From assembly GCA_016192135.1 (NCBI GenBank), contig JACPUR010000019.1:124001-188000 (forward strand): a stretch of 64,000 nt of DNA. Reading direction: 5' to 3'. This document shows positions 314-13,546 of this stretch, in pieces. The notes beneath the pieces are model-generated. The model was not told the DNA's origin. It was given only the letters and a program-made list of their open reading frames with translations, and made no database searches. Position 1 is the stretch's first letter; each line of letters opens with the position of its first letter. This DNA is from Candidatus Tectomicrobia bacterium (GTDB lineage Bacteria > UBA8248). A program made the translations under genes and the position numbers.

Positions 314-1336
314 ATGACCCAGCCCCCCGACGAATTCGAGTTCTTCTTCGAGAAGCCCTGGTCGGACGGCCTGCCCGTCGTCATCCCCACGGAAGATCGC
401 ATCGCGCGCATGCTCTCTGGCACCCGGCGCGGCCCGGAGGAGTCCCTCGGCCCCGTCCCGCCCCTCATGGAGGAGGCGACGGTGCGCTCCGTCGCGGTCC
501 ACGCCGTCATGGCGGGCTGCAAGCCCGAGTACCTGCCGGTGGTGCTGGCCGGGCTCGAGGCGATGCTGGAGGATTCCTTCAACCTGAACGGCATCCAGGG
601 GACGCTCAACAGCGTGGCGCCGCTCCTGATCGTGAACGGCCCCTACACCCGGAAGATCGGCCTGCACGGGGGGAGCGGCTGCTTCGGCCCGGGCTTTAGG
701 GCCAACGCCACCATCGGCCGCGCCATCCGGCTCATGCTGCTGAACCTGGGCGGGGGCATCCCGATGGTGGCCTCCATGAGCACCTTCGGCCAGCCCTCGC
801 GCTACACCTACTGCATCGCCGAGAACGAGGCCGAGAGCCCCTGGGAGCCCCTCTCCGTCACCAAGGGCTCGCCCCCCGGGGCGGACGCCGTCACCGTCGT
901 GGCCTGCGAGAACCCCCAGCTCGTGGTGGACGACGGGAGCCGCGGCCCCGAGTCCCTCTGCGCGGCCATCGCGGACGCCATGGCGCACCTCGGCTCCTGG
1001 AACCTGTGGACGCGGACCGACCTCGTGGTGGCGCTGAGCCCCCAGCAGGCGGCCATCTGCGCCCGGGCGGGCTGGAGCAAGGCGGATGTCCACAGGAGGC
1101 TGATGGAGCGCGCGGGGCGGCCACTGGGGGATTTGAAGAAGTCCGGCCACTACCGGCCGGAGCGGATGGTGGGCCTTCCGATCGACCTGGACGACGACGG
1201 CGCCTTCGTCCCCGCCCTGCGCGACCCCTCCGACCTCCACGTGATCGTCGCGGGCGGCGTCCCCGGCCCCCACAGCGCCCTCATGCACGGCTGGAGCGGC
1301 GGGAGCCGGTCGGTGCATAGGAGGTATGAGCCCTAG
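314..1336 (+). CDS. UGSC-associated conserved protein (large partner type), function unknown
   Basis: This 340-residue soluble protein starts at the ATG at 314, ten bases after a GGAG. The longer open frame upstream runs through a non-coding repeat and is not used. Visible landmarks are WSDGLPVVIPTEDRI (about 16-30), AVMAGCKPEYLPVVLA (65-79), VNGP (107-110), GGSGCFGPG (119-127), NATIGRAIRLMLLNLGGG (131-148) and a cysteine at 167. From memory, proteins with the DGLPVVxPT, AVMAGCxPEYLPVV and GPGxRANATIGR pattern occur next to or fused with the small UGSC selenoprotein domain, and a UGSC gene lies 5.4 kb away at 6734-7264. No catalytic activity is known to me. The partnership is inference; the coding call is firm. 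Confidence 0.8.
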   Translation: MTQPPDEFEFFFEKPWSDGLPVVIPTEDRIARMLSGTRRGPEESLGPVPPLMEEATVRSVAVHAVMAGCKPEYLPVVLAGLEAMLEDSFNLNGIQGTLNSVAPLLIVNGPYTRKIGLHGGSGCFGPGFRANATIGRAIRLMLLNLGGGIPMVASMSTFGQPSRYTYCIAENEAESPWEPLSVTKGSPPGADAVTVVACENPQLVVDDGSRGPESLCAAIADAMAHLGSWNLWTRTDLVVALSPQQAAICARAGWSKADVHRRLMERAGRPLGDLKKSGHYRPERMVGLPIDLDDDGAFVPALRDPSDLHVIVAGGVPGPHSALMHGWSGGSRSVHRRYEP

Positions 1337-1842
1337 CGCCGCCCCTCACTTTCTTCCAACTCCAGCAGCGCGGCCTTGAGCCCCGTGAGCCTCTTCCCTC
1401 TCGCGAATCCCCCGAGCCCGCCCGAGCCCGCGACGACGCGGTGTCAGGGCACGACGAGGGGCACGGGGTTGCGGCCCATGGCCTGGCCCACGGCGCGGGC
1501 GGCGCCGGGCCTGCCGATCTTCTGGGCGATCCAGCCGTAGGAGCGCGTCCCGCCGTAGGGGATGCGGGCGGCCTCGCGCAGCACGGCCCGGACGAAGGGG
1601 GTGCAGGCCGAGAGGTCGGCCCGCACGGTGAAGGCGCGGCGCCTGCCGGCCAGGTACTCGGCGATCTCCCGCCGGGCCTTCTTCGCCAGGGGGGAGCCGT
1701 CCTCCCCGCCCTCCGCCTCGTCCTCGCGGAGCATCCCGATCCCGCAGACGCCCCGCGCCGAGGCGCGCACGGTGAACTCGTCCTTCACGCGGGCGAGCCA
1801 GGGGGTGTCATCGGCCGTGAATAATTCCGGATGAGGATTCAT
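1333..1842 (-). CDS. ogt: Methylated-DNA--protein-cysteine methyltransferase with in-frame TGA (probable selenocysteine) at the active site
   Basis: O6-alkylguanine-DNA alkyltransferases remove alkyl groups from guanine by irreversible transfer to a reactive Cys in a PCHR motif. Here the family core is easy to read: FVRAVLREAARIPYGGTRSYG, the Arg-finger region AARAVGQA, then NPVPLVVP. The next codon is TGA at 1446-1444 (residue 133). The same frame then continues H-R-V-V-A-G-S-G-G-L-G-G-F, GLKAALLELE, and stops at TAG (1335-1333). The total of 169 residues matches the family. The TGA therefore replaces exactly the alkyl-accepting Cys. The start ATG at 1842 has a GGGAAG upstream. A 7-bp hairpin with loop GGGC lies 14-31 nt after the TGA. 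The gene overlaps the convergent gene at 314-1336 by 4 bp. The alternative is a pseudogene from a Cys-to-TGA point mutation, but the 36 conserved codons downstream and a second Sec-type gene nearby argue against that. Confidence 0.8.
1413..1430 (-). promoter_or_regulatory. Candidate bacterial SECIS hairpin of the Sec-methyltransferase
   Basis: Downstream of the TGA at 1446-1444 the mRNA can pair CGGGCUC with GGGCUCG (7 bp, two G-U) around a GGGC loop. The loop starts 21 nt after the TGA and its first base is G, as in the bacterial SECIS consensus I know. The region is very GC-rich, so chance pairing is possible. Confidence 0.45.
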
Positions 1843-1874
1843 CGATCTTCCCGTTCTAAGGATCTGCTCGCGCT

Positions 1875-1954
1875 GTCATTCTGAGCGAAGCGAAGAATCT
1901 CGGTGTGGCCTTGAACCGAGATTCTTCACTCCGCTTCGCTCCGTTCAGAATGAC
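1875..1954. repeat. 80-bp GTCATTCTGAGCG inverted-repeat element
   Basis: The left arm starts GTCATTCTGAGCGAAGCG and runs through GAAGAATCTCGG. The right arm is its imperfect reverse complement, ending CCGTTCAGAATGAC. A nearly identical full copy is at 22926-23004 and partial copies at 22536-22554 and 50688-50713. It has the shape of a small non-autonomous or REP-like element and has no coding capacity. Confidence 0.8.
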
Positions 1955-1977
1955 GTCCTTTGGCGGTTGTTCTTGCC

Positions 1978-2694
1978 CTACTTCCTCGCCGCGCTCAGGC
2001 GCTCGCGCAGCAGCGCCCCGCCGAGCCGGCCCCGGCCCTCGTAGCCGGCCGTCCGGAGGGTGTGCCACAGGGCGGTGGTGTTGCTGGTGAGGACGGGCTT
2101 GCCGAGATCGCGCTCGAGCCGGTCGATGACCTCCAGCGAGCGGAAGTTGGTGCAGCTGATGAAGATGCCCTCGGCCTCGGGGGCATCCACCTCGCGGGCC
2201 AGGGCCTCGGCGTTCCCGGGGGGGAGAAAGGCGGGGCACTCGACGTTCTGGCCCTTCTCCCGCACCACCGCGATGCCGTGGTCCTTGAGGAAGCCGCCCA
2301 GGCGGTCGTTCAGCCACTGGGGATAAGGCGAGGCGACGGCCACCTTCGCGATGCCCATCTCCCGCATGGCCTCGACCAGGGCGGTCGCGGTGGTGGTGGC
2401 GGGGATGCCGGTCTTCTCCTGGATGACCTGGGTGATCTCAAGGTCCATGCCCGGGCGCACGAAGCTCCCGCCCGTGCAGCCGAAGCAGATGGCGTCGAGC
2501 CTGGCGTGGCCCAGCAATTCGGCCAGGTGGGGCACCTCGTGGATCATGCGGAGGAGGGTCTCCTCCTCGTCGTTCGTGTGGTGGATGCGGGTGAAGTGGA
2601 CCGAGACGCCCTCGGGGGCCATGCGGGCGCACTCGTATTCCATGACGGTGTTCCAGGAGGGGACGATGAAGCCCAGCTTTTTCACCCAATCCAT
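1978..2694 (-). CDS. Maleate cis-trans isomerase / arylmalonate decarboxylase-like protein (Asp/Glu racemase superfamily)
   Basis: The 238-residue protein begins at the ATG at 2694, preceded by a GAGGAG. It opens with KKLGFIVPSWNTVMEYE, the N-terminal substrate-binding strand of maleate isomerases and related racemases. Two cysteines lie in the typical places: one in CFGCTGGSF near residue 75 and one in ISCTNFRSLEVID in the C-terminal half. In the family these two Cys face each other across the active site and drive cofactor-free isomerisation, racemisation or decarboxylation of a dicarboxylate. The exact substrate cannot be told from the sequence. Its own strand-neighbours are a DUF486 membrane gene upstream and the Sec-methyltransferase downstream, with an 80-bp repeat in between, so it is probably transcribed alone. 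Confidence 0.82.
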   Translation of the reverse strand: MDWVKKLGFIVPSWNTVMEYECARMAPEGVSVHFTRIHHTNDEEETLLRMIHEVPHLAELLGHARLDAICFGCTGGSFVRPGMDLEITQVIQEKTGIPATTTATALVEAMREMGIAKVAVASPYPQWLNDRLGGFLKDHGIAVVREKGQNVECPAFLPPGNAEALAREVDAPEAEGIFISCTNFRSLEVIDRLERDLGKPVLTSNTTALWHTLRTAGYEGRGRLGGALLRERLSAARK

Positions 2695-2854
2695 GATGGC
2701 TCTCCTCGGGATGGGGGGGAGCGGCGCCCTCAAGGCCCAGGCAGCGATCCGTTCATGATAGTGGATGCCCGCGCGGGCGGGCAAGGCGGGGGAAAACGGG
2801 GAGGGTCAAGGGCACCCCCGGCTGTCGGCGCCTTCCTCCCCCTCCCTCCGACCG

Positions 2855-2893
2855 CCCTCACCCTACCCTCTCCCAGGGGGAGAGGGAAAACCC
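2855..2893. repeat. CCCTCTCCC-family palindrome
   Basis: CCCTCACCCTACCCTCTCCC is followed by AGGGGGAGAGGG. It is the same palindrome family as at 150-248 and fills the gap between the isomerase and DUF486 genes. Confidence 0.6.
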
Positions 2894-2908
2894 CTCCTTC
2901 TCTTACCT

Positions 2909-3253
2909 TTACCGCGCCGCTTCTCCCCCCGGCAGGGTGGCCACCGCCACGGCCAGGAACACGAGCCCGATGGCCACGGCCTCGTTCCAGCGGGGCAGCT
3001 CGTTCAGGTAGAGCTTGGCGAAGGCGACGAAGACGGTGAGGGTGATGGCCTCCTGGAGGATCTTGAGCTGGGAGGCGGTGAAGAGGCCGTGCCCCCACCG
3101 GTTGGCGGGCACCTGGAGGCAGTACTCGAAGAACGCGAGCAGCCAGCTCAGGAGCACCACCTTCCAGAGGTCGGTCTGCTTGAACTTGAGGTGGCCGTAC
3201 CAGGCCAGGGTCATGAAGACGTTCGAGGCGACGAGCAGCAGGACGGTGAGCAT
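2909..3253 (-). CDS. DUF486-family four-helix membrane protein (DMT superfamily)
   Basis: The ATG at 3253 gives 114 residues with about four hydrophobic helices (MLTVLLLVASNVFMTLAWY at the start, WKVVLLSWLLAFFEY, LKILQEAITLTVFVAF and AIGLVFLAVAVAT). The phrases FMTLAWYGHLK, EYCLQVPANR and LKILQEAITL are hallmarks of the DUF486 family, small proteins related to half-size drug/metabolite transporters. Residues upstream of this Met in the longer frame are Gly/Pro/Arg-rich and look non-coding. No transport substrate is known. Confidence 0.85.
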   Translation of the reverse strand: MLTVLLLVASNVFMTLAWYGHLKFKQTDLWKVVLLSWLLAFFEYCLQVPANRWGHGLFTASQLKILQEAITLTVFVAFAKLYLNELPRWNEAVAIGLVFLAVAVATLPGGEAAR

Positions 3254-3538
3254 GGGGGGCGCGCTTCCTCCGGCGCGGCGCGAAGGGGCGAAGCGCGGGG
3301 GGCCGGCTTCTCGGCCGGGGGGCGGGCCGCACCCCCGCCCGGCGCGGGCCGACTCTAGCACATCCTGCCCCCGGCCCCCGAGTCCTTTTCCCGGGGATTT
3401 TCCTCCGCCGGCGAAGGTTAATTCCCCGTTACGTTGCGGGCATTCCCGCATTGTGAGGGGCCCGCGCGGGCGGTACACACAGGGGCAGGAGATTCATCCG
3501 CGCGCGTTGCGCGGCCCGGCCGCCGCCGGGGGGCCAGC

Positions 3539-4186
3539 ATGCCCCGCTCGAAGCCCCGGTTCCTTGCACTGGCCGCCGCCCTCTTCTTCCTCTCCCTGGT
3601 TCCCCGGGAGGCCGGCACCGAGCCCGAGATCCCGCCCCGGCTCGAGAGCGCCCTGCGGCTGCTCGAATCCGTGCCCGAGGGCGGGCCGCTCGCCGCCTTC
3701 ATCCGGCGGGGCGGCGTCCGCCTCCATTTCGGGACGTGCCGGATCGCCATCGAGAGCACCCAGGCCTCGGCCTGCTTCGACCACCGCTCCCGGGCCATCA
3801 CCGTCTCGCGGGACCTCGATGAGGCGCCCCTCGACTTCCTCGCCGCCCTCATCGCCCACGAGGCGACCCACGCCGAGCGCAGCGTCCAGACCCAGATCGG
3901 CTACCTCTTCCGGCCCTCCCCCGAGGCCCGCCTCCAGCTCATGCTCGTGGAGGAGGCGGCGGCCTACCGCGCGCAGGTGCGGGTCTGGCGCGTCCTCCGG
4001 AACCGGCCCGGGGCCTCCGAGTCCGAGGGGGCGCCCTGGCAGCGCACCCGGGCGATGGAGCACCTGGCCCGGCGGGTGGAGAAGCAGGCGACGGAGGAGG
4101 ACCTCATCCGCCTCATCGCGCGCGACATGGGCTACAGCGCCTACTACGGCGAGAAGCCCGCGGGGGCCTCGGCGGGGATCGAGTAG
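3539..4186 (+). CDS. Putative secreted HExxH zinc metalloprotease-like protein
   Basis: This 215-residue protein has an N-terminal signal-like stretch (SKPRFLALAAALFFLSLVP) and then a soluble domain. The motif HEATHAE in the middle fits the zinc-binding HExxH of metallopeptidases, followed by an acidic, alpha-helical segment (LMLVEEAAAYRAQVRVWRVL) that could supply the third ligand. Two cysteines lie close together (FGTCRIAIESTQASACF) and may form a disulfide in the periplasm. I do not recognise a named family. It may be a degenerate peptidase-like domain rather than an active enzyme. It stands alone between divergent and convergent neighbours. Confidence 0.65.
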   Translation: MPRSKPRFLALAAALFFLSLVPREAGTEPEIPPRLESALRLLESVPEGGPLAAFIRRGGVRLHFGTCRIAIESTQASACFDHRSRAITVSRDLDEAPLDFLAALIAHEATHAERSVQTQIGYLFRPSPEARLQLMLVEEAAAYRAQVRVWRVLRNRPGASESEGAPWQRTRAMEHLARRVEKQATEEDLIRLIARDMGYSAYYGEKPAGASAGIE

Positions 4187-4255
4187 GGGGCGCCGTTTTT
4201 CTCCCACCCCATTTCTCTGGCGTCGTCTTTAGAGAATATTAGAGGCGTTCATGAA

Positions 4256-4345
4256 TTGGACTTCCCCCCTCCCCCTCCGGGGGAGGGTTGGGGTGGGGGA
4301 GCGCCCATTTGCGGCTTTCCCTCCCCCTGCCCCCTCCCGCCTATG
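4256..4345. repeat. CCCTCTCCC-family inverted repeat
   Basis: CCCCCTCCCCCTCC is followed by GGGGGAGGG, then GGTTGGGGTGGGGGAG, with a second half CCCTCCCCCTGCCCCCTCCC. It is the same low-complexity palindrome family as at 150-248. The gap 4187-4480 holds only this repeat and no gene. Confidence 0.6.
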
Positions 4346-4480
4346 CGGGCCGAAGCCCCTCTAGCCGCCTTCGCGAAGCCCGCTTCGGCGGGCGAAGGCC
4401 CGGCGGGAGGGGGTATTTTCGAGTCATTCACCCGCAGCATGGCCGACCTCTTCCCAGCGGCGGGCTTCCAACCCGCCCCT

Positions 4481-4843
4481 TCACCGGACCAGCACCCCCG
4501 GCGGCCGGCCCCGCCCCTCGACGAAGCCCGCGTCCGCCCCCGCCAGCCCGAGCTGGGCCAGCGCCTCCTCGAGTTCGCCGTCGGGCGAGAGGCGGATGGC
4601 CCGCCGGCTGGGCCGCTCCCCGGCGGCGAGGTCGCCCGCCGTCACGAACACCTCGGGCGCCAGGGCCCCCTCCAGGTCCCTCCCGTCGAGCAGCCCCACC
4701 AGCCGGCCGCCCTCCGGGCGGACACCCTCGAAGACCGCCACCCAGGGCGCGTTCTTGCGGTTCATGGCGAGCCAGGCCTCGCGCGCGTCGTCCTCGGCCT
4801 GGACCAGGACCACGGCCTGGAGGAAGGTCTCGCGGAGCTTCAT
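4481..4843 (-). CDS. Small protein, possible divergent CBS-type domain
   Basis: The ATG at 4843 gives 120 residues. The N-terminal half (TFLQAVVLVQAEDDAREAWLAMNRKNAPWVAVFE) and the phrase GRLVGLLDGRDLEGAL resemble the strand-helix pattern of one CBS module (xxGVVxxRDL). A second weaker half follows (ELEEALAQLGLAGADAGFVEGRGRPPGVLVR). No catalytic residues are visible. The family call is tentative. It lies just downstream of the membrane gene at 4869-5312 on the same strand and could be co-transcribed with it and with arsR-type gene 5370-5723. Confidence 0.55.
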   Translation of the reverse strand: MKLRETFLQAVVLVQAEDDAREAWLAMNRKNAPWVAVFEGVRPEGGRLVGLLDGRDLEGALAPEVFVTAGDLAAGERPSRRAIRLSPDGELEEALAQLGLAGADAGFVEGRGRPPGVLVR

Positions 4844-4868
4844 GGAAGCTCTTTCGACGCTGCCGCCG

Positions 4869-5312
4869 TCACCTTGCGAAGGCCCACCGGCACAACCCCC
4901 AGAGGACGACGGCATACAGGACGTGGGGCACGAGGGAAGCCGGGATCAGCTTTGGGCTCACGCCCAGGCCCAGGAACCCCCACCCCATGAACGGGAAGAA
5001 AACCACCAGGATCACCACCCACAGGAAAAGGCTGAGCGCGAGGGCATTCCAGAAGCTCAGGTTGTCTCGGAACAACACCACGAAGGCCAGGGTCCAGAAG
5101 GTCAGGTAGGCCACGTGGAAGAGAAGCCCCACCGGGAGGGGCAGCGGGCGGCCCAGGAGGGTTTCGGCGAAGGCCAGGCTCGGCTGCTTGGGCATGGGCG
5201 CGAGACCCAGCGCGAAGGCCGGGACCATCACGGCCGATAGGATCAGCGAGACGAGAACCCCCACGGCCAGCGCCTTCCCGATTTCCCTTCCCTCGAGTCG
5301 ATGGATTCTCAT
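4869..5312 (-). CDS. Four-helix integral membrane protein, unknown
   Basis: The 147-residue protein has four clear transmembrane segments: ALAVGVLVSLILSAVMVPAF, VGLLFHVAYLTFWTLAFVVLF, ALALSLFLWVVILVVFFPFM and ASLVPHVLYAVVLWGLCRWA. A charged N-terminus (MRIHRLEGREIGK) precedes the first helix. I do not recognise the family. It is 57 bp downstream of an ArsR-type regulator on the same strand, so it is probably under that regulator's control. Confidence 0.7.
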   Translation of the reverse strand: MRIHRLEGREIGKALAVGVLVSLILSAVMVPAFALGLAPMPKQPSLAFAETLLGRPLPLPVGLLFHVAYLTFWTLAFVVLFRDNLSFWNALALSLFLWVVILVVFFPFMGWGFLGLGVSPKLIPASLVPHVLYAVVLWGLCRWAFAR

Positions 5313-5369
5313 TCTTGCGCCTCCTCATCTTCGTCCGGCCGGCGGCAATGGCGATCCTTTTTTCGGCTC

Positions 5370-5723
5370 TCATGAACGGCGGTTATCGTTGGAGTCCTCC
5401 GGCCTGCAGGCGGGCGGGCACCCCTCGGCGCTCCGCCCGCAGCAGTTCTCGGTCAGGTAGTCCACCAGCCCCCGGATCGTCTCGTAGCTCGCCGCGTACA
5501 CGATGCTCCGCCCCTTCCGCTCGGATGTGATGAGGCCCGCGTGGCGCAGGCGCGCGAGGTGGAAGGAGACGGAGTTCGGGGGCCTCCCGAGCTGGCGGCC
5601 GATCTCGCCTGCGGGCAGCCCCTCCGGCCCCGCCTGGACCAGCAGGCGGAAGAGGGCCAGCCGCGCCCCGTGGGCCAGGGCGGCCAGGCGTTCGACGGAA
5701 TCAGAAGCGGCTCTCATTTCCAT
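5370..5723 (-). CDS. ArsR/SmtB-family winged-helix metalloregulator
   Basis: A 117-residue repressor with the ArsR fold: ERLAALAHGARLALFRLLVQAG, then IGRQLGRPPNSVSFHLARLRHAGLITSERKGRSIVYAAS as recognition helix and wing. The C-terminus is Cys-rich (ENCCG followed by EGCPPAC). A vicinal CC near the C-terminus is seen in thiol-binding ArsR members that sense arsenic or related soft ions. Start choice is between the ATG at 5723 and one at 5717. A perfect palindrome covers the upstream start (5721-5746), suggesting autorepression. The likely downstream gene is the membrane protein at 4869-5312; no arsenic genes are in view. Confidence 0.88.
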   Translation of the reverse strand: MEMRAASDSVERLAALAHGARLALFRLLVQAGPEGLPAGEIGRQLGRPPNSVSFHLARLRHAGLITSERKGRSIVYAASYETIRGLVDYLTENCCGRSAEGCPPACRPEDSNDNRRS

Positions 5724-5785: not shown

Positions 5786-6568
5786 CTACTCGCCCCTAAA
5801 CACCGGCTTGCGCTTCTCGCGGAAGGCGGCGAGAGCCTCGGCGAAGTCCCGGGTGTAGTTGAGGGGGAGCCTGAGCGCGTTCGAGAACTCGATGGCCTGG
5901 GGCAGCGCCATCTCGGCCGCGTTCTGGATGACCTTCTTGGCGGCGCGCACCCCGAGGGGGCCGTTGTCGCGGATCTGGCCGGCGAGGGCGCGGGCCTCCT
6001 CCATGAGGCGCTCCTTGGGGTGGGCGCGGTTCACGAAGCCGATGCGCTCGGCTTCCCTGCCGTCGAAGCGCTTGGCGGTGTAGATGAGCTCGGCCGCGAG
6101 CCCGGGGGCGAGGAGGCGGGGGAGGCGCACCGTGCCCCCGGCGCCGGGGAAGATGCCCAGCGCGCACTCGGGGAAGCAGAGCACCGCGTCCTCGGCGGCG
6201 AGGCGCATGTCGCAGGCCAGCGCGATCTCCATCCCGAAGCCGAAGCAGGGGCCGTTGATGGCGGCCAGGGTGGGCATGGGGAGGCGCTCCCACAGGGTGA
6301 CGGCCTCCATGCCGGTGAGCTGGAAGCGGTCGGCCTCCTCCTTGGTGTGCGCGGCGCTCTCCTTCAGGTCCCGTCCGGTGGAGAAGGCGCGGCCCCCTCC
6401 GGTCAGGATGACGGCGCGCACGCCCTTTTCCTCCGCCAGCGCGAGGGAGAGGGCGCGCAGCTCCCCGGCCATGTTCATGCCCAGGGCGTTCAGGCGCTCG
6501 GGGCGGTCCAGGGTGACGGTGGCGAGGCCGTCCGCCTCCTCGTAGCGGATCTCCTTGAACGCGCGCAC
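5786..6568 (-). CDS. Enoyl-CoA hydratase/isomerase (crotonase family)
   Basis: The GTG at 6568 has an AGGAGGA six bases upstream, so I prefer it to the ATG 21 bp further out. The protein has 260 residues. Crotonase features are LDRPERLNALG (about 20-30), the oxyanion loop INGPCFGFGME, FPECALGIFPGAGGT and a C-terminal helical domain. Both glutamates used for water addition in enoyl-CoA hydratase are present at 114 and 134, with the family's 20-residue spacing, so true hydratase chemistry is plausible. It acts on acyl-CoA intermediates in the cytoplasm. No beta-oxidation neighbours are seen, and the gene is probably monocistronic. Confidence 0.9.
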   Translation of the reverse strand: MRAFKEIRYEEADGLATVTLDRPERLNALGMNMAGELRALSLALAEEKGVRAVILTGGGRAFSTGRDLKESAAHTKEEADRFQLTGMEAVTLWERLPMPTLAAINGPCFGFGMEIALACDMRLAAEDAVLCFPECALGIFPGAGGTVRLPRLLAPGLAAELIYTAKRFDGREAERIGFVNRAHPKERLMEEARALAGQIRDNGPLGVRAAKKVIQNAAEMALPQAIEFSNALRLPLNYTRDFAEALAAFREKRKPVFRGE

Positions 6569-6607
6569 GGGGCCTCCTCCTGGAATCAATTTGCTCCGCC
6601 CAAATTC

Positions 6608-6733: not shown

Positions 6734-7264
6734 TCACGCCTTCAGGTGGCTCACCACCTCGTCGAGGTAGCGCGCGGCGACGGCGCGCATCTCGTGGGGC
6801 TGGAGGTTGCTCACCGGGTGGGGAAGCTGGACGTAGGGATGCCCGGCCATGCCCTTGCCCTTGAACTGGAAGTCCGCCGCGTTCTTGAAGGCCTCGGTGA
6901 TGATGGTGGTGGCGGGGACGCCCCGTTTCTCGAACTCGACCGTGTCGTGCACACTGCACAACGTGCAGGACCCTCACCCCCCCAGCGCCGCGATGGCGAC
7001 GTCCACCTCCTTGGCCATGTCCTCGATCAGATCGTCGGGAGCCGGCTTCGAGTAGTGCTCCTTGCGGCGCATCACGACCTTCGACACGTCGTAGCGCTCG
7101 CGCAGGAGGTCGCCCAGGGTCTGGAGGATGATGTCGGCCTGCTCCTTGGTGTTGTCGAGGAGCCCGACCACCTTGCCGGAGAGGGCCGCGGGGCGGGGCG
7201 CCTTGGGGACGCTCTTCTTGCTCCCCCCCGCCGTGGGGTCCACGAAGCCGAGGTTTCCTGCCAT
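6734..7264 (-). CDS. UGSC-family selenoprotein with in-frame TGA (Sec97)
   Basis: The ATG at 7264 has AAAGGAG upstream. The frame encodes MAGNLGFVDPTAGG, SGKVVGLLDNTKEQADIILQ, an EDMAKEVDVAIAALGG strand, then TGA at 6976-6974. The same frame continues G-S-C-T-L-C-S-V-H-D-T-V-E-F-E-K-R-G-V-P and ends at 6734, giving 176 residues with Sec at 97. The UGSC motif (Sec-Gly-Ser-Cys) defines a selenoprotein family that I know mainly from metagenomes, and the residues after it match that family (VHDTVEFExxGVPxTTIxTExF). The fold looks like a small Rossmann-type thiol/selenol protein; the reaction is unknown. Standard gene callers would split it into two pieces. A candidate SECIS hairpin follows at 6944-6962. 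Confidence 0.85.
6944..6962 (-). promoter_or_regulatory. Candidate bacterial SECIS hairpin of the UGSC gene
   Basis: After the TGA at 6976-6974, nucleotides 12-19 (GUUGUGCA) pair fully with 23-30 (UGCACGAC), an 8-bp stem with one G-U. The three-base loop GUG begins 20 nt after the TGA with G first. Distance and loop base agree with the bacterial SECIS model. Confidence 0.6.
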
Positions 7265-7478
7265 GGAGGGCTCCTTTCGTAAGCCGTTTTGGGGCGCCAT
7301 CTTAGCCCCCGCTCCGGAGGCGTGTCCATAGGGGCACTTCCCGGGGCGGGCCGGAAATTGTATGAATATGGGCAAAACCGGACCCGCTGATTTCGGTCCA
7401 AAAGGTCCGCTAATTCACCGGCCCGCGCGAGCCCCGCGGCTCGCCGCTCCCCGCGCCAATCCGCTTCGGAGGTTCCGC

Positions 7479-9758
7479 ATGAGCGAGTTCGCCATCGTCG
7501 GCAAGCCCAACCCGCGCTTCGACGCCCTGCCCAAGGCCGACGGGTCGCTTCCCTACGGCGAGGACCAGATCCCCGCCAACGCCCTGCACTGCGGCCTCCT
7601 CTACAGTCCGGTGCCCTGCGGCAAGCTCAAGAGGCTCGACACCTCGGCCGCCGAGCGCGTCCCCGGCGTCGCGGCCGTCCTCACGGCCAAGGACGTGCCG
7701 GGCAAGAACGAGCACTACGGCTCGGGCTACCCGCCCCACCCCTCCCAGCCCATCTTCGCGAAGGAGGATATCCGCTACACCGGGGACGTGCTGGCCCTCG
7801 TGGGGGCCGAGACGCGCGATGCGGTGGAGGCCGCCATCGCCGCCATCAAGGTCGAGATCGAGGCGGCCGAGGGCGTCTGGACCACCCGCCACACCGAGCC
7901 CGGCGCCGAGGCGCGCAAGGTGTGCGACTTCGAGGTCCGCCGCGGGAACGCCGAGGAAGCGCTCTCGAGGGCCGACGTGGTGATCGAGCGCACCTACCGC
8001 ACCCAGCTCGCCGAGCACGCCTTCCTCGAGCCGGCCTCCGGCACCTCCTGGATCGACGCGGACGGCGTCGTCACCATCCGGGTGGGCACCCAGCTCATCG
8101 AGAACTACCGGGCGGTGGCGGCGGTGCTGGGGCTCCCCCACAGCAAGGTGCGGGTGCTGGGCACCTTCGTGGGCGGAGGCTTCGGGGCCAAGGGGGTGAT
8201 GACGGTGGAGCCCTACCTCGCCCTCCTGACCTGGAAGACCAAGCGCCCGGCCGTCATGGTGATCGGCCGCGAGCACGGCATCCGCTCCACCATGAAGAAG
8301 CACCCCTTCGAGATGCGCTACCGCACGGGCGTGAGCCGCGACGGGAAGATTCTCGCCGTGGACGCCGACATCGTCGGGGACGCGGGGGCCTACCCGCACA
8401 AGACCAACCTCTTCCTGCTGGGCGCCATGTGCATCGCCGCCGGGCCCTACGAGATCGAGAACGTCCGGGTGCGCGCCCACGGCTATCTCACCAACAACCC
8501 CATCACCAACGCCATGCGCGGGGTGGGCTCGAACCAGGTCTGCTTCGCCTACGAGAGCCAGCTCGAGCTGGCCGCCCAGGCCCTCGGCATGGATGCGATG
8601 GAGCTCCGGCGCCGCAACTTCATCCAGAAGGGGGGCAAGCTCCCGACCGGCCAGCCCATCGTCAACTCGCCCAACCTGGAGGGCTGCCTCGGCGCGGTGC
8701 TCAAGGCGCTCGGGCCCCGGCCCCAGGCCCGGCCCGGCAAGCGCATCGGCCGGGGCGTCGCCGCCAACATCACCGGCTACGGGCGCCCCTTCGACGCGGC
8801 CGAGGCCGCCGTCCACATGGAGAACGACGGGAGCGCCGTGGTGCGGGTGAGCGCCCCCGACATCGGCGCGGGCCAGGGGGCGACGCTACTCTCCATCGCC
8901 GCCGAGGAGCTGGGCCTGGGGCTCGGCCAGGTGAGCATCCACCTCTCCGACTCGGCCACCACGCCGCTCTCGGGCATCACGGCCGGGAGCCGGCAGACCC
9001 TGATGGCGGGCAACTCGGTCCGCGCGGCGGCAGAGACCATCAAGAACGGGCTCTTGAAGGGCGCGGGCGCGCTCTTGGAGGCCGCGGCCGAGGACGTGCG
9101 CATGGCGGGCGGCGAGGCCTGGGTGGCCTCCGCCCCCGAGCGCCGGGTGAAGATGAACCTCGTCGTGGCCAAGGCGAAGGAGCTCAAGCAGCAGCTCCAC
9201 TGCACCCAGAACCTCAACCTCCCCCCCCACGTCTACGAGAACCCCCAGCGCTACATGGGGGGCCTGGGCGGCTGGGCGGACTACACCTTCGGGGTCCACG
9301 CCACCGACGTCGAGGTGGACGCCGAGACGGGCGAGGTGCAGGTGCTCCGCCACGTGGCCTGCCACGACGTGGGCCGGGCCTTGAACCCCATCAGCGTCGA
9401 GGGCCAGTTCGAGGGAGGGGCCGTCATGGGCATCGGCTACGCCCTGCACGAGGAGATCACCATGCAGAAGGGCGTCTGCCGCTCCCAGAGCTTCCACGAG
9501 TACCTGATCCCCACCTCCTCCGACATCGGGGAGTTCCAGTCCATCATCCTCGAGTGCGGGGAGGGGGACGGCCCCTGGGGGGCGCGCGGGGTGGGGGAGC
9601 CTCCCTGCAACAACGCCCCGGCGGCGGTGGCGCTGGCGGTGGGGGACGCGATCGGGACGAGGCTCCTCGACCTCCCCGTCACCCCCGAGCGCGTCGCCCG
9701 CGCCGCGATGGAGGCCAAGAAGAACGGAAGGAACGGGCACGGAAGGCAGGCGGCGTGA
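7479..9758 (+). CDS. Molybdopterin-binding large subunit of a xanthine dehydrogenase/CO dehydrogenase-type hydroxylase
   Basis: The ATG at 7479 follows TCGGAGG and gives 759 residues. Features are an N-terminal aldehyde-oxidase a/b hammerhead domain (LPKADGSLPYGEDQIP, PGVAAVLTAKDVPG) and the molybdopterin domains with VGGGFGAKG (about 231), AMRGVGSNQVCFAYESQLE, GAGQG and AGSRQT. GARGVGEPP near residue 704 holds the glutamate that acts as base in this family. Such subunits hydroxylate purines, aldehydes or aromatic acids at a Mo-MPT centre and need separate 2Fe-2S and FAD subunits. Neither partner lies beside this gene, so they must be encoded elsewhere or the enzyme is atypical. The substrate cannot be assigned. 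Confidence 0.9.
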   Translation: MSEFAIVGKPNPRFDALPKADGSLPYGEDQIPANALHCGLLYSPVPCGKLKRLDTSAAERVPGVAAVLTAKDVPGKNEHYGSGYPPHPSQPIFAKEDIRYTGDVLALVGAETRDAVEAAIAAIKVEIEAAEGVWTTRHTEPGAEARKVCDFEVRRGNAEEALSRADVVIERTYRTQLAEHAFLEPASGTSWIDADGVVTIRVGTQLIENYRAVAAVLGLPHSKVRVLGTFVGGGFGAKGVMTVEPYLALLTWKTKRPAVMVIGREHGIRSTMKKHPFEMRYRTGVSRDGKILAVDADIVGDAGAYPHKTNLFLLGAMCIAAGPYEIENVRVRAHGYLTNNPITNAMRGVGSNQVCFAYESQLELAAQALGMDAMELRRRNFIQKGGKLPTGQPIVNSPNLEGCLGAVLKALGPRPQARPGKRIGRGVAANITGYGRPFDAAEAAVHMENDGSAVVRVSAPDIGAGQGATLLSIAAEELGLGLGQVSIHLSDSATTPLSGITAGSRQTLMAGNSVRAAAETIKNGLLKGAGALLEAAAEDVRMAGGEAWVASAPERRVKMNLVVAKAKELKQQLHCTQNLNLPPHVYENPQRYMGGLGGWADYTFGVHATDVEVDAETGEVQVLRHVACHDVGRALNPISVEGQFEGGAVMGIGYALHEEITMQKGVCRSQSFHEYLIPTSSDIGEFQSIILECGEGDGPWGARGVGEPPCNNAPAAVALAVGDAIGTRLLDLPVTPERVARAAMEAKKNGRNGHGRQAA

Positions 9759-10868: not shown

Positions 10869-12749
10869 ATGTGCGCTCCGGAGACTTTTTTCGCCGCCGT
10901 TCGGACGTGGCCGAGCGTGTATACGCCAAAGCTTGTCACGGAATTGAAGGGGTACGACAGAGGGAAACTGGTTTCCGATTTGTTCGCGGGGATCACGGTG
11001 GGCGTGGTGGCCCTGCCGCTGGCCATGGCCTTCGCGATCGCCAGCGGCCTCCCGCCCGAGCGCGGCCTGTTCACGGCGATCGTGGCGGGGCTCATGATCT
11101 CCGCCCTGGGTGGGAGCAAGGTCCAGATCGGCGGGCCGACCGGGGCCTTCGTGGTCATCGTCTCCGGCATCGTGGGACAGTACGGCTACGCCGGGCTGGC
11201 GCTGTGCACCCTGATGGCCGGGGTGCTCCTCATCCTCTTCGGGCTGTTCCGGCTGGGGGGACTGATCCGGTTCATCCCGTTCCCGGTCACCACGGGCTTC
11301 ACGACCGGGATCGCCGTGGTCATCTTTTCCACCCAGATCAAGCCGCTGCTCGGCCTGCGCATGGAGGCCGTCCCGTCCGAGTTCCTTCCCCAGTGGCAGG
11401 CCTACCTGGCGCATCTGGACAGCCTGAACTTCTCGGCGGCCGCGCTCGGCGCAGGCACCATCGGGCTCATCCTGCTCGTCCGCAGGCTCTTCCCCCGGTG
11501 GCCCGCGCTGCTCATCGGCATGGCCGCCGCCGCCGCCGCCTCTTCATGGCTGGGGCTGGACGTGGAGACGATAGGCGCCAGGTTCGGCGACCTGCCCCGC
11601 GTCCTCCCCGCGCCCTCGCTGCCCGAGGTCCGCTGGGAGGACATCGGGGGGCTCCTCAAGCCCGCGATGACGGTCGCGCTCCTGGCCGCGGTCGAGTCCC
11701 TGCTCTCGGCCTCGGTGGCAGACGGGATGATCGGCGGCCACCACCGCCCGAACGCGGAGCTGATCGCCCAGGGTGCCGCCAACATCGGCAGCGTCATCTT
11801 CGGAGGGATTCCCGCCACGGGCGCCATCGCCCGCACGGCGACTAACGCGAGGAGCGGCGCCCGGACGCCGGTGGCGGGCATAATCCACGCCCTCGTCCTG
11901 ATGGCGCTCCTCCTCCTCTTCGCGCCCCTGGCCAAGCAAATCCCGCTCGCCGCGCTGGCCGGCATCCTCGTGGTGGTGAGCTACAACATGAGCGAGCTCC
12001 ACCACTTCCGCTCCATCCTGAAGGGGCCGAAGAGCGACGCCTTCGTGCTGGCGCTCACCTTCGTGCTCACCGTGGTGTTCGACCTCACCCTGGCGGTGGA
12101 GGTGGGCATCGCGCTCGCGGCCCTCCTGTTCATCCGGCAGATGTCGAAGATCACCAACGTCAGCATGGTCACCAGCCCGGCGGCGGGGGATGGCGACCGG
12201 CGGGAGGACCTGCGCGCCATCTCCCTGCGGGAAGTTCCCCACGGCGTGGAGGTGTTCGAGGTCAACGGCCCCTTCTTCTTCGGGATGATCGACACCTTCA
12301 AGAACGCCGTCCGGAACGTGAAGTGCCCCACGCCGGTGCTCATCATCCGCATCCGGAACGTCCAGGCGATGGACGCGACCGGCATCCACACGCTGCGGGA
12401 ACTGAGGCACCGGTGCGGCCGGGAGGGGACGGCCCTCGTCTTCTCGGGGGTGAATCCACAGCCCCTCGCCGCCTTCCAGCGTTCCGGGCTGATGCAGGAG
12501 GTCGGCCGGGAGAATTTCTGCGCCAACATCGACGAGGCCCTCGCCCGCGCCCGGGCGATCCTGGCCGGGCTGGAGCGGGAGGAAGCGGTGGAGAGCCCCT
12601 CCCCTTGGGCCCAAGCAAAATGGCCCTCCCCTTTCACGGGGAGGGCCGAACGTTTCCCTCGGGATTTTTCTCAGGGCTTCCCGGGCTCGGGCCCCTTGGC
12701 GACGGGGGCGCCGACGAGGTTGCCCCACTCGGTCCAGGAGCCGTCGTAG
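10869..12749 (+). CDS. SulP-family anion permease with C-terminal STAS domain
   Basis: This 626-residue protein starts at the ATG at 10869. The sulfate-transporter core has about 10-14 membrane segments, beginning with LVSDLFAGITVGVVALPLAMAFAIASGLPPERGLFT. It includes GGPTGAFVV and the conserved ESLLSASVADGMIGGHHRPNAELIAQGAAN segment. The STAS domain follows (residues about 440-560), with MDATGIHTL near residue 500 marking the nucleotide/phospho-site loop. Family members carry sulfate, bicarbonate, molybdate or other anions into the cell. The last 50 residues run through a hairpin (12622-12647) and overlap the convergent rhodanese gene, so the tail may be an extension past an ancestral stop. 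The convergent rhodanese suggests sulfur metabolism, but no true operon joins them. Confidence 0.93.
   Translation: MCAPETFFAAVRTWPSVYTPKLVTELKGYDRGKLVSDLFAGITVGVVALPLAMAFAIASGLPPERGLFTAIVAGLMISALGGSKVQIGGPTGAFVVIVSGIVGQYGYAGLALCTLMAGVLLILFGLFRLGGLIRFIPFPVTTGFTTGIAVVIFSTQIKPLLGLRMEAVPSEFLPQWQAYLAHLDSLNFSAAALGAGTIGLILLVRRLFPRWPALLIGMAAAAAASSWLGLDVETIGARFGDLPRVLPAPSLPEVRWEDIGGLLKPAMTVALLAAVESLLSASVADGMIGGHHRPNAELIAQGAANIGSVIFGGIPATGAIARTATNARSGARTPVAGIIHALVLMALLLLFAPLAKQIPLAALAGILVVVSYNMSELHHFRSILKGPKSDAFVLALTFVLTVVFDLTLAVEVGIALAALLFIRQMSKITNVSMVTSPAAGDGDRREDLRAISLREVPHGVEVFEVNGPFFFGMIDTFKNAVRNVKCPTPVLIIRIRNVQAMDATGIHTLRELRHRCGREGTALVFSGVNPQPLAAFQRSGLMQEVGRENFCANIDEALARARAILAGLEREEAVESPSPWAQAKWPSPFTGRAERFPRDFSQGFPGSGPLATGAPTRLPHSVQEPS
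12610..12647 (-). terminator. Terminator of the rhodanese gene
   Basis: GGCCCTCCCC pairs perfectly with GGGGAGGGCC. On the minus strand ATTTTGCTT follows, making a plausible intrinsic terminator. It lies inside the 3' end of the SulP frame. Confidence 0.7.
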
Positions 12750-13546
12750 TTGCGGACGTTGTCGTAGCCGAGGAGGAACTTGAGCACGAACCAGCTGTGG
12801 CTCGATCGCTCCCCGATGCGGCAGTAGGCGACGACGGGCTTGTCGGGGGTGACGCCCTTGCCCTTGTAGAGGGCCTCGAGCTCCTCGCGCGGCTTGAAGG
12901 AGCCATCCTCCTTCACGGCCTGGCCCCAGGGGATGTTGGCCGCCCCGGGAATGTGGCCGCCCCGCTGGCAGGTCTCGTTCAGCCCCGGAGGGGCGAGGAT
13001 CTTCCCGGTGTACTCGTCCGGGGAGCGTACGTCCACAAGGGCGAAGGACTTCCCGTTGGAGAGCAGCTCCTCCACGTCCCGGCGGTAGGCGCGGAAGCTC
13101 TTGTTCATCCGGGCGGGGTCCACCTTATAGCTCCCGGCGGGATGCTTGGGGGCCCCGGTGGTGAGGGGGCGGTTCTCCTTGAGCCACTTCACGCGCCCCC
13201 CGTCCATGAGGCGGGCGTCCCCGTGGCCGTAGTACTTGAGCTGCCAGACGAACCAGGCGGCGAACCAGTTGTTGTTGTCGCCGTAGGCCACGATGGTGGT
13301 GTTGTTCGAGATGCCGAGGTCGCTCAGCAGCTTCTCCCAGTCCTGGTTCGAGAGGAGATCGCGGCGCACCTGGTCGGTGAGCTGGCTGTCCCAGCTCACC
13401 CCTACGGCGCCCTCGATGTGGCCCTTCTCGTAGGACGAGGTGTCGACGTCCACCTCGACCAGGCGGACGTTGGGATCCTTGCCGTGCTGGGCGACCCAGT
13501 CGGTGGAGGCGAGGACCTCCGGATGGGCGTAGTTGGTGGTAGCCAT
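12671..13546 (-). CDS. Thiosulfate/3-mercaptopyruvate sulfurtransferase (tandem rhodanese)
   Basis: 291 residues in two rhodanese domains. The N-terminal domain (VRLVEVDVDTSSYEKGHIEGAVGVSW) is the inactive half, and the C-terminal domain (ALVDVRSPDEYTG) carries the active-site loop CRIGERSSH with Cys242. The loop resembles thiosulfate sulfurtransferases (CRxGxRS) more than the CGSGVTA loop of mercaptopyruvate enzymes. It transfers sulfane sulfur to cyanide or thiol acceptors. No signal peptide is seen, so it is probably cytoplasmic. An AT-rich promoter region lies upstream at 13600-13660. It is convergent with the SulP gene. Confidence 0.92.
   Translation of the reverse strand: MATTNYAHPEVLASTDWVAQHGKDPNVRLVEVDVDTSSYEKGHIEGAVGVSWDSQLTDQVRRDLLSNQDWEKLLSDLGISNNTTIVAYGDNNNWFAAWFVWQLKYYGHGDARLMDGGRVKWLKENRPLTTGAPKHPAGSYKVDPARMNKSFRAYRRDVEELLSNGKSFALVDVRSPDEYTGKILAPPGLNETCQRGGHIPGAANIPWGQAVKEDGSFKPREELEALYKGKGVTPDKPVVAYCRIGERSSHSWFVLKFLLGYDNVRNYDGSWTEWGNLVGAPVAKGPEPGKP

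Follow-up and report, generated by a model that had tools for sequence, protein, structure and literature searches.

We looked at a gene encoding a selenoprotein of the UGSC family in a 64,000-nucleotide stretch of the Candidatus Tectomicrobia bacterium assembly GCA_016192135.1 (contig JACPUR010000019.1, positions 124,001 to 188,000; the whole stretch is called the window below). On the minus strand, the frame running from the ATG at 7264 to the stop TGA at 6736-6734 yields 176 residues across a single internal TGA, and when this TGA is read as selenocysteine (Sec, U) the joined product is MAGNLGFVDP...AALGG-U-GSCTLCSVHDTVEFEKRG...SHLKA. The joined frame matched above cut-off both the Pfam UGSC model (PF24696), which covers residues 8-175, and the NCBIfam model UGSC_fam (NF041046). 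The U-G-S-C motif is present as GG-U-GSCTLC, with U97, G98 and S99 conserved across homologues, while ordinary calling of open reading frames yields two pieces, 6974-7375 and 6734-6961. The original prediction had described two open frames of the same phase parted by TGA, giving a UGSC protein of 176 residues with a well-formed ribosome-binding site that gene callers would split. All of this was borne out, the strand, which it had not given, being minus and the ribosome-binding site being an AGGAG motif. A plus-strand reading of 6734-7264 was rejected as an unrelated frame. The gene is thus an intact selenoprotein gene of a known family, misread as two fragments as its internal stop codon encodes Sec. 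UGSC selenoproteins were known by 2008 at the latest (Zhang and Gladyshev 2008), and this gene shares with them the full-length match, the motif, the Sec position, the length, the near-absence of cysteine (Cys) forms and a selenocysteine insertion sequence (SECIS) of bacterial type. It is a well-supported new member, and none of its features deviates from the family.

Conservation of the TGA was studied in two samples, namely the 80 closest homologous loci (50-88% identity, taken from genome contigs), where the codon was located by alignment, and 18 genomes of the same taxonomic family, a phylum-wide search having given the identical 18. Counts of Sec and Cys forms beyond the taxonomic family come from PMC2398784 and these 80 loci. 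The TGA was found at the identical codon in all 80 loci, with strong protein conservation on both sides of it. In the family genomes, 89 of the 90 UGSC matches run through a single TGA; the sole exception is a fragment starting downstream of the Sec codon. This genome holds two UGSC genes, and the second (C25:29050-30685; L010, L136, L138) also has a single TGA, with a gene for the partner protein described below directly after it. A single Cys form was seen, in a paralogue fused to the partner (L093:4151-5794), where TGC replaces the Sec codon; in the same genome, the UGSC copy neighbouring this fusion keeps Sec. The original prediction had asked whether homologues carry Cys or Sec and whether they are conserved beyond the TGA: they carry Sec almost without exception, and conservation extends to both sides. 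It had also looked to the selenium machinery of the genome, and this was found in part. SelB (389 bits), SelA (540 bits) and tRNA-Sec (74.8 bits) are present, whereas no SelD above cut-off was found in this assembly. SelD above cut-off, carrying a TGA of its own, was detected in 14 of the 18 family genomes, namely the two congeners and 12 of the remaining 15. Since both congeners and most relatives have SelD, its absence from this 96.8% complete assembly is likely an assembly gap.

Downstream of the Sec codon, at +12 to +30 after the UGA, lies a hairpin that coincides exactly with the one placed there by the original prediction. In an alignment of 24 sequences, 90.6% of the cells of this hairpin were paired, changes on both sides were seen in 6 of the 8 pairs, and 0 of 500 shuffles reached the observed value. 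Registers slid along the same region were 21-65% paired. By eye, the fusion paralogues L078 and L082 have a similar stem and GUG loop shifted by two bases. When the region was folded as a single sequence, it was no more stable than shuffles (z = +0.93) and the minimum-energy fold was a competing hairpin, so that the case for a SECIS rests on covariation. Rfam models matched nothing in the window at their gathering thresholds. The conserved TGA followed by a covarying hairpin corresponds to the downstream bacterial SECIS of the UGSC family. These results indicate that the TGA encodes Sec, since the conservation of the codon, the Sec machinery, the covarying hairpin and the second UGSC gene with its single TGA all agree.

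Table 1. Features of the UGSC locus in the window (positions of the window)
Feature	Position	Strand	Evidence and remarks
UGSC selenoprotein gene	6734..7264	minus	TGA=U translation; PF24696, 182.9 bits (cut-off 25); NF041046, 148.7 bits (cut-off 125); coordinates include stop codon
UGA selenocysteine codon, Sec97 of U-G-S-C motif	6974..6976	minus	conserved TGA in homologues
Bacterial SECIS-type hairpin, 8-bp stem GUUGUGCA/UGCACGAC, GUG apical loop	6944..6962	minus	covariation
Ribosome-binding site AGGAG, 6 nt upstream of ATG	7271..7275	minus	sequence
UGSC partner protein, ~340 aa	314..1336	plus	family alignment; last of three tandem copies
Arylmalonate decarboxylase (Amdase) / Asp-Glu racemase superfamily protein	1978..2784	minus	PF17645, 102 bits; recurrent neighbour type
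Enoyl-CoA hydratase/isomerase, next gene downstream of UGSC	5786..6589	minus	PF00378, 195 bits
Molybdopterin-binding xanthine dehydrogenase/aldehyde oxidase-like large subunit	7362..9758	plus	PF02738, PF20256, PF01315

An AlphaFold model of the UGSC protein was obtained from an alignment of 49 sequences with a mean predicted local distance difference test score of 94.3. In this model, strands (E) and helices (H) alternate in the order E-H-E-H-E(Sec)-H-E-H-E, with Sec97 located between strand 89-95 and helix 98-113, that is, at the end of strand 3 and the start of the next helix. Two near-invariant motifs, DNTKE and PHP, come just after strand 1 and strand 5, respectively, and from the model we infer that they would share one active-site edge with Sec. 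When the model was searched with Foldseek, Rossmann, flavodoxin and SIS-type domains came on top with modest TM-scores (template modelling scores), and no thioredoxin fold was found within the top 50 PDB matches. By sequence search, no protein of solved structure was found to be related to UGSC, GrdB or the partner. The U-x-x-C spacing is common to UGSC and to thioredoxin-like selenoproteins, and a thioredoxin-like fold had been suggested for the family (PMC2398784). In contrast, the predicted order of elements does not follow the thioredoxin b-a-b-a-b-b-a topology with UxxC at the first helix, and the model, in which UGSC appears as a single Rossmann/flavodoxin-like domain, argues against that suggestion. 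UGSC also differs from thioredoxin-like selenoproteins in that its Cys is not strictly conserved. Position 100 is Cys in 45 of the 49 sequences and serine in the other 4, and the putative resolving cysteine (Cys100) is not strict, serine being found in paralogues that retain Sec.

We then compared the 49 UGSC proteins with NCBIfam models at E up to 1. The GrdB model TIGR01917 was matched by 45 of them, GrdH by 40, GrdF by 28, TIGR01918 by 26 and PrdB by 16, with a best E of 1.5e-4, and the next family, AhpD, was matched by 14. Profile comparison by hhalign of UGSC with a set of long GRDB proteins scored 39.8 with Sec aligned to Sec, whereas 60 column shuffles reached at most 21.9 and 13 other profiles at most 21.2. 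The result was marginal when the short PrdB-like proteins were used by themselves (28.8 versus a shuffle maximum of 28.1). The Pfam GRDB model (PF07355) is blind to this relation because its 347 positions end before Sec. GrdB, GrdH and GrdF (PF07355, TIGR01917) and PrdB (TIGR04483) share with UGSC the order strand-Sec-x-x-C/S/T-helix-ExxGIP-strand and a UGA-encoded Sec, whereas UGSC is without the long N-terminal part of GrdB and stays below every family cut-off (14.5 bits versus 602 for TIGR01917 with the UGSC protein studied here). As the family cut-offs were failed, UGSC is, judged by its sequence, a relative of GrdB/PrdB and not a member of these families, and its Sec region may be read as a remote homologue, a stand-alone version of their C-terminal Sec domain. 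We did not find this relation stated in the literature searched. GrdB and PrdB belong to enzymes in which, as is established, the substrate is bound by subunit B, whose Sec participates in reductive cleavage (PMC13188914). UGSC also differs from them in having no requirement for the pyruvoyl subunit GrdE and in a partner protein that is unrelated to theirs. No match to this subunit (GrdE/PrdA, PF09338) was found in this genome, nor in the genomes G009 and G011, which have 7 and 2 UGSC genes. In related genomes, the frames of the GRDB proteins L103-L115 stop at TGA and continue as U-G-T-x-T-R-S-G...E-x-x-x-I-P; these are likely Sec-containing GrdB proteins with GrdE (PF09338) alongside. Shorter GRDB proteins of related genomes read U-P-x-C from the TGA onwards. 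Three short GRDB/PrdB-like proteins were also seen in this genome (C30:61266-61619, or L119; C21:4500-4892; C23:99108-99497), and in L119, P-N-C-T-R follows the TGA at which the frame ends, which makes this protein probably a further selenoprotein.

The commonest neighbour of UGSC is a gene for a partner protein, present in 74 of the 80 loci; in most cases it lies upstream of UGSC and in the same orientation. Among the 18 genomes of the family, the partner is linked to at least 77 of the 88 UGSC copies, at least 58 of them having it within 400 bp and at least 19 more having it within about 5 kb on the same strand. In the window, the partner copy is on the opposite strand to UGSC, about 5.4 kb distant. 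It belongs to three tandem copies at C19:121802-125330, two of which lie just before the window start, and a fourth copy adjoins the other UGSC gene of the genome. Natural fusions of the two proteins, with UGSC first, were found at L052, L073, L078, L082, L086 and L093. A model of the fusion had a predicted template modelling score of 0.88, and a structure search with it matched nothing convincingly in the half formed by the partner; its few significant hits were those already obtained with UGSC alone. The partner family likewise had no Pfam or NCBIfam model match and no PDB relative by sequence. UGSC paralogues number up to 8 per genome in the family genomes, mostly with a partner of their own. 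At L024 and L026-L029 (about 1060-5390), a single UGSC gene has four tandem partner copies upstream of it, which suggests either a hetero-oligomer or several partner versions for binding substrates. In Global Ocean Sampling data, UGSC was seen fused to a conserved domain whose function is not known, named 'Unknown_1' (PMC2398784, Figure S1A). This domain may well belong to the same family as the partner; the linkage as a separate gene is shown here. Apart from this fusion, which may involve the same partner, the partner gene was not found in the literature searched. The predicted Rossmann/flavodoxin-like fold, the remote GrdB/PrdB homology and the pairing with the partner go beyond that literature.

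Other genes recurring near UGSC encode TctC receptors, CoA transferases, Amdase and MmgE/PrpD-type proteins, and these neighbours, along with the enoyl-CoA hydratase and the molybdenum hydroxylase-like protein, point to carboxylate catabolism. The PF17645 family represented in the window is also found near UGSC in Burkholderiales, for example at L041, and a cluster of the enoyl-CoA hydratase type occurs in 12 loci. The molybdopterin-binding subunit gene is divergent from UGSC, and its true start is probably at about 7480.

On balance, we think it probable that UGSC and its partner form a two-component, selenol-dependent reductase acting on small carboxylates, in which UGSC is a remote GrdB/PrdB relative made via SelB and SECIS. 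What the data support in this proposal is the signals for Sec decoding, the fold as predicted, the distant homology and the partnership, while the chemistry, the substrate and the part played by the partner are inferred. Sec would be inserted at the UGA under the direction of SelB and the SECIS, the partner would most likely bind a small carboxylate or carboxamide as substrate, which the Sec selenolate would attack in a reductive cleavage like that of GrdB/PrdB, after which a thiol donor would reset UGSC. Because UGSC genes occur without a match to the pyruvoyl subunit in this genome, G009 and G011, the partner is proposed as its replacement and may take over from it as the substrate-binding component. 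The many UGSC-partner pairs would then differ in substrate. Several points weigh against this proposal. The similarity to GrdB is remote (hhalign probability of 65%, best single-sequence E of 1.5e-4), the substrate type is drawn from neighbour genes only, and no SelD was found in the assembly. The literature found gave no biochemistry for any UGSC protein, and the reviews consulted give no activity for the family. Moreover, nothing like a pyruvoyl-type site can be recognised in the partner, and the Cys that is near-invariant in the partner family has been lost from L047 and from the fusions L073 and L082, so the Grd/Prd mechanism is not simply transferable in its literal form.

Among the alternatives, the one in which the TGA is artefactual or truly ends translation, so that the locus would hold a pseudogene, two separate genes or a sequencing error, has a negligible probability. 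The missing SelD and the unremarkable stability of the single-sequence hairpin would fit it, but it is refuted for practical purposes by the TGA shared by the 80 loci and the single TGA of nearly all matches in the 18 genomes, together with the conservation on both sides, the presence of SelA, SelB and tRNA-Sec and the covarying hairpin. A general thiol/selenol oxidoreductase, thioredoxin-like or acting as a peroxide or disulfide reductase through U-x-x-C, with the partner as a protein substrate or accessory, is unlikely. Cys100 in 45 of 49 sequences speaks for it; however, the confident model is of the Rossmann-like alternating a/b type with no thioredoxin fold in the top 50 Foldseek matches, serine replaces Cys100 in paralogues retaining Sec, and the presence of as many as 8 paralogues in one genome, most of them with a separate partner each, fits substrate-specific enzymes better.

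The two remaining alternatives concern the relation to GrdB/PrdB. It is quite unlikely, in our view, that UGSC has a role unrelated to Grd/Prd chemistry, for example as a redox-regulated binding protein, its U-x-x-C after a beta strand being convergent. The similarity is indeed weak and concentrated around the motif, and another family with a redox-cysteine motif, AhpD, is also matched by 14 of the 49 proteins. Nevertheless, all five GrdB/PrdB-type models were matched, and most of these were matched by many more UGSC proteins than any other family was. The hhalign alignment covers nearly the full length of the protein and scores above 180 shuffles and 13 unrelated profiles. Conversely, UGSC could be an alternative B-type Grd/Prd subunit working with the pyruvoyl subunit GrdE/PrdA (PF09338), as the remote homology at the Sec site and the GrdE encoded beside a Sec-containing GrdB in relatives of this genome would allow. 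We regard this as very improbable, since this genome, G009 and G011, all without a PF09338 match, have 2, 7 and 2 UGSC genes and the UGSC copies adjoin the unnamed partner instead.

If the two-component reductase proposal holds, the GrdB/PrdB link and the partner gene would give an orphan selenoprotein a concrete and testable enzyme hypothesis, and would explain why many Sec-dependent copies are kept in several bacterial groups. More tentatively, these proteins might represent a widespread and unrecognised class of selenium-dependent two-component reductases, in which a minimal GrdB/PrdB-type Sec domain has exchanged the pyruvoyl subunit for a new substrate-binding protein. In Tectomicrobia-like bacteria this class would have expanded to up to 8 copies per genome, each specific for its substrate, and it would occur in SAR202 and beta-proteobacteria as well. 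Annotation is likely to miss the UGSC gene and its paralogues or to break them up, and neither Pfam nor NCBIfam has an entry for the partner family.

Finally, three other frames were noted in the window. The frame at 3434-4186 on the plus strand had a weak, below-cut-off match to the DUF6782 putative metallopeptidase family and contains a HEATHAE motif. A rhodanese-like sulfurtransferase frame, named from its sequence only, lies on the minus strand at 12671-13546, and a SulP-type sulfate permease frame on the plus strand at 10869-12749 is convergent and overlapping with it.
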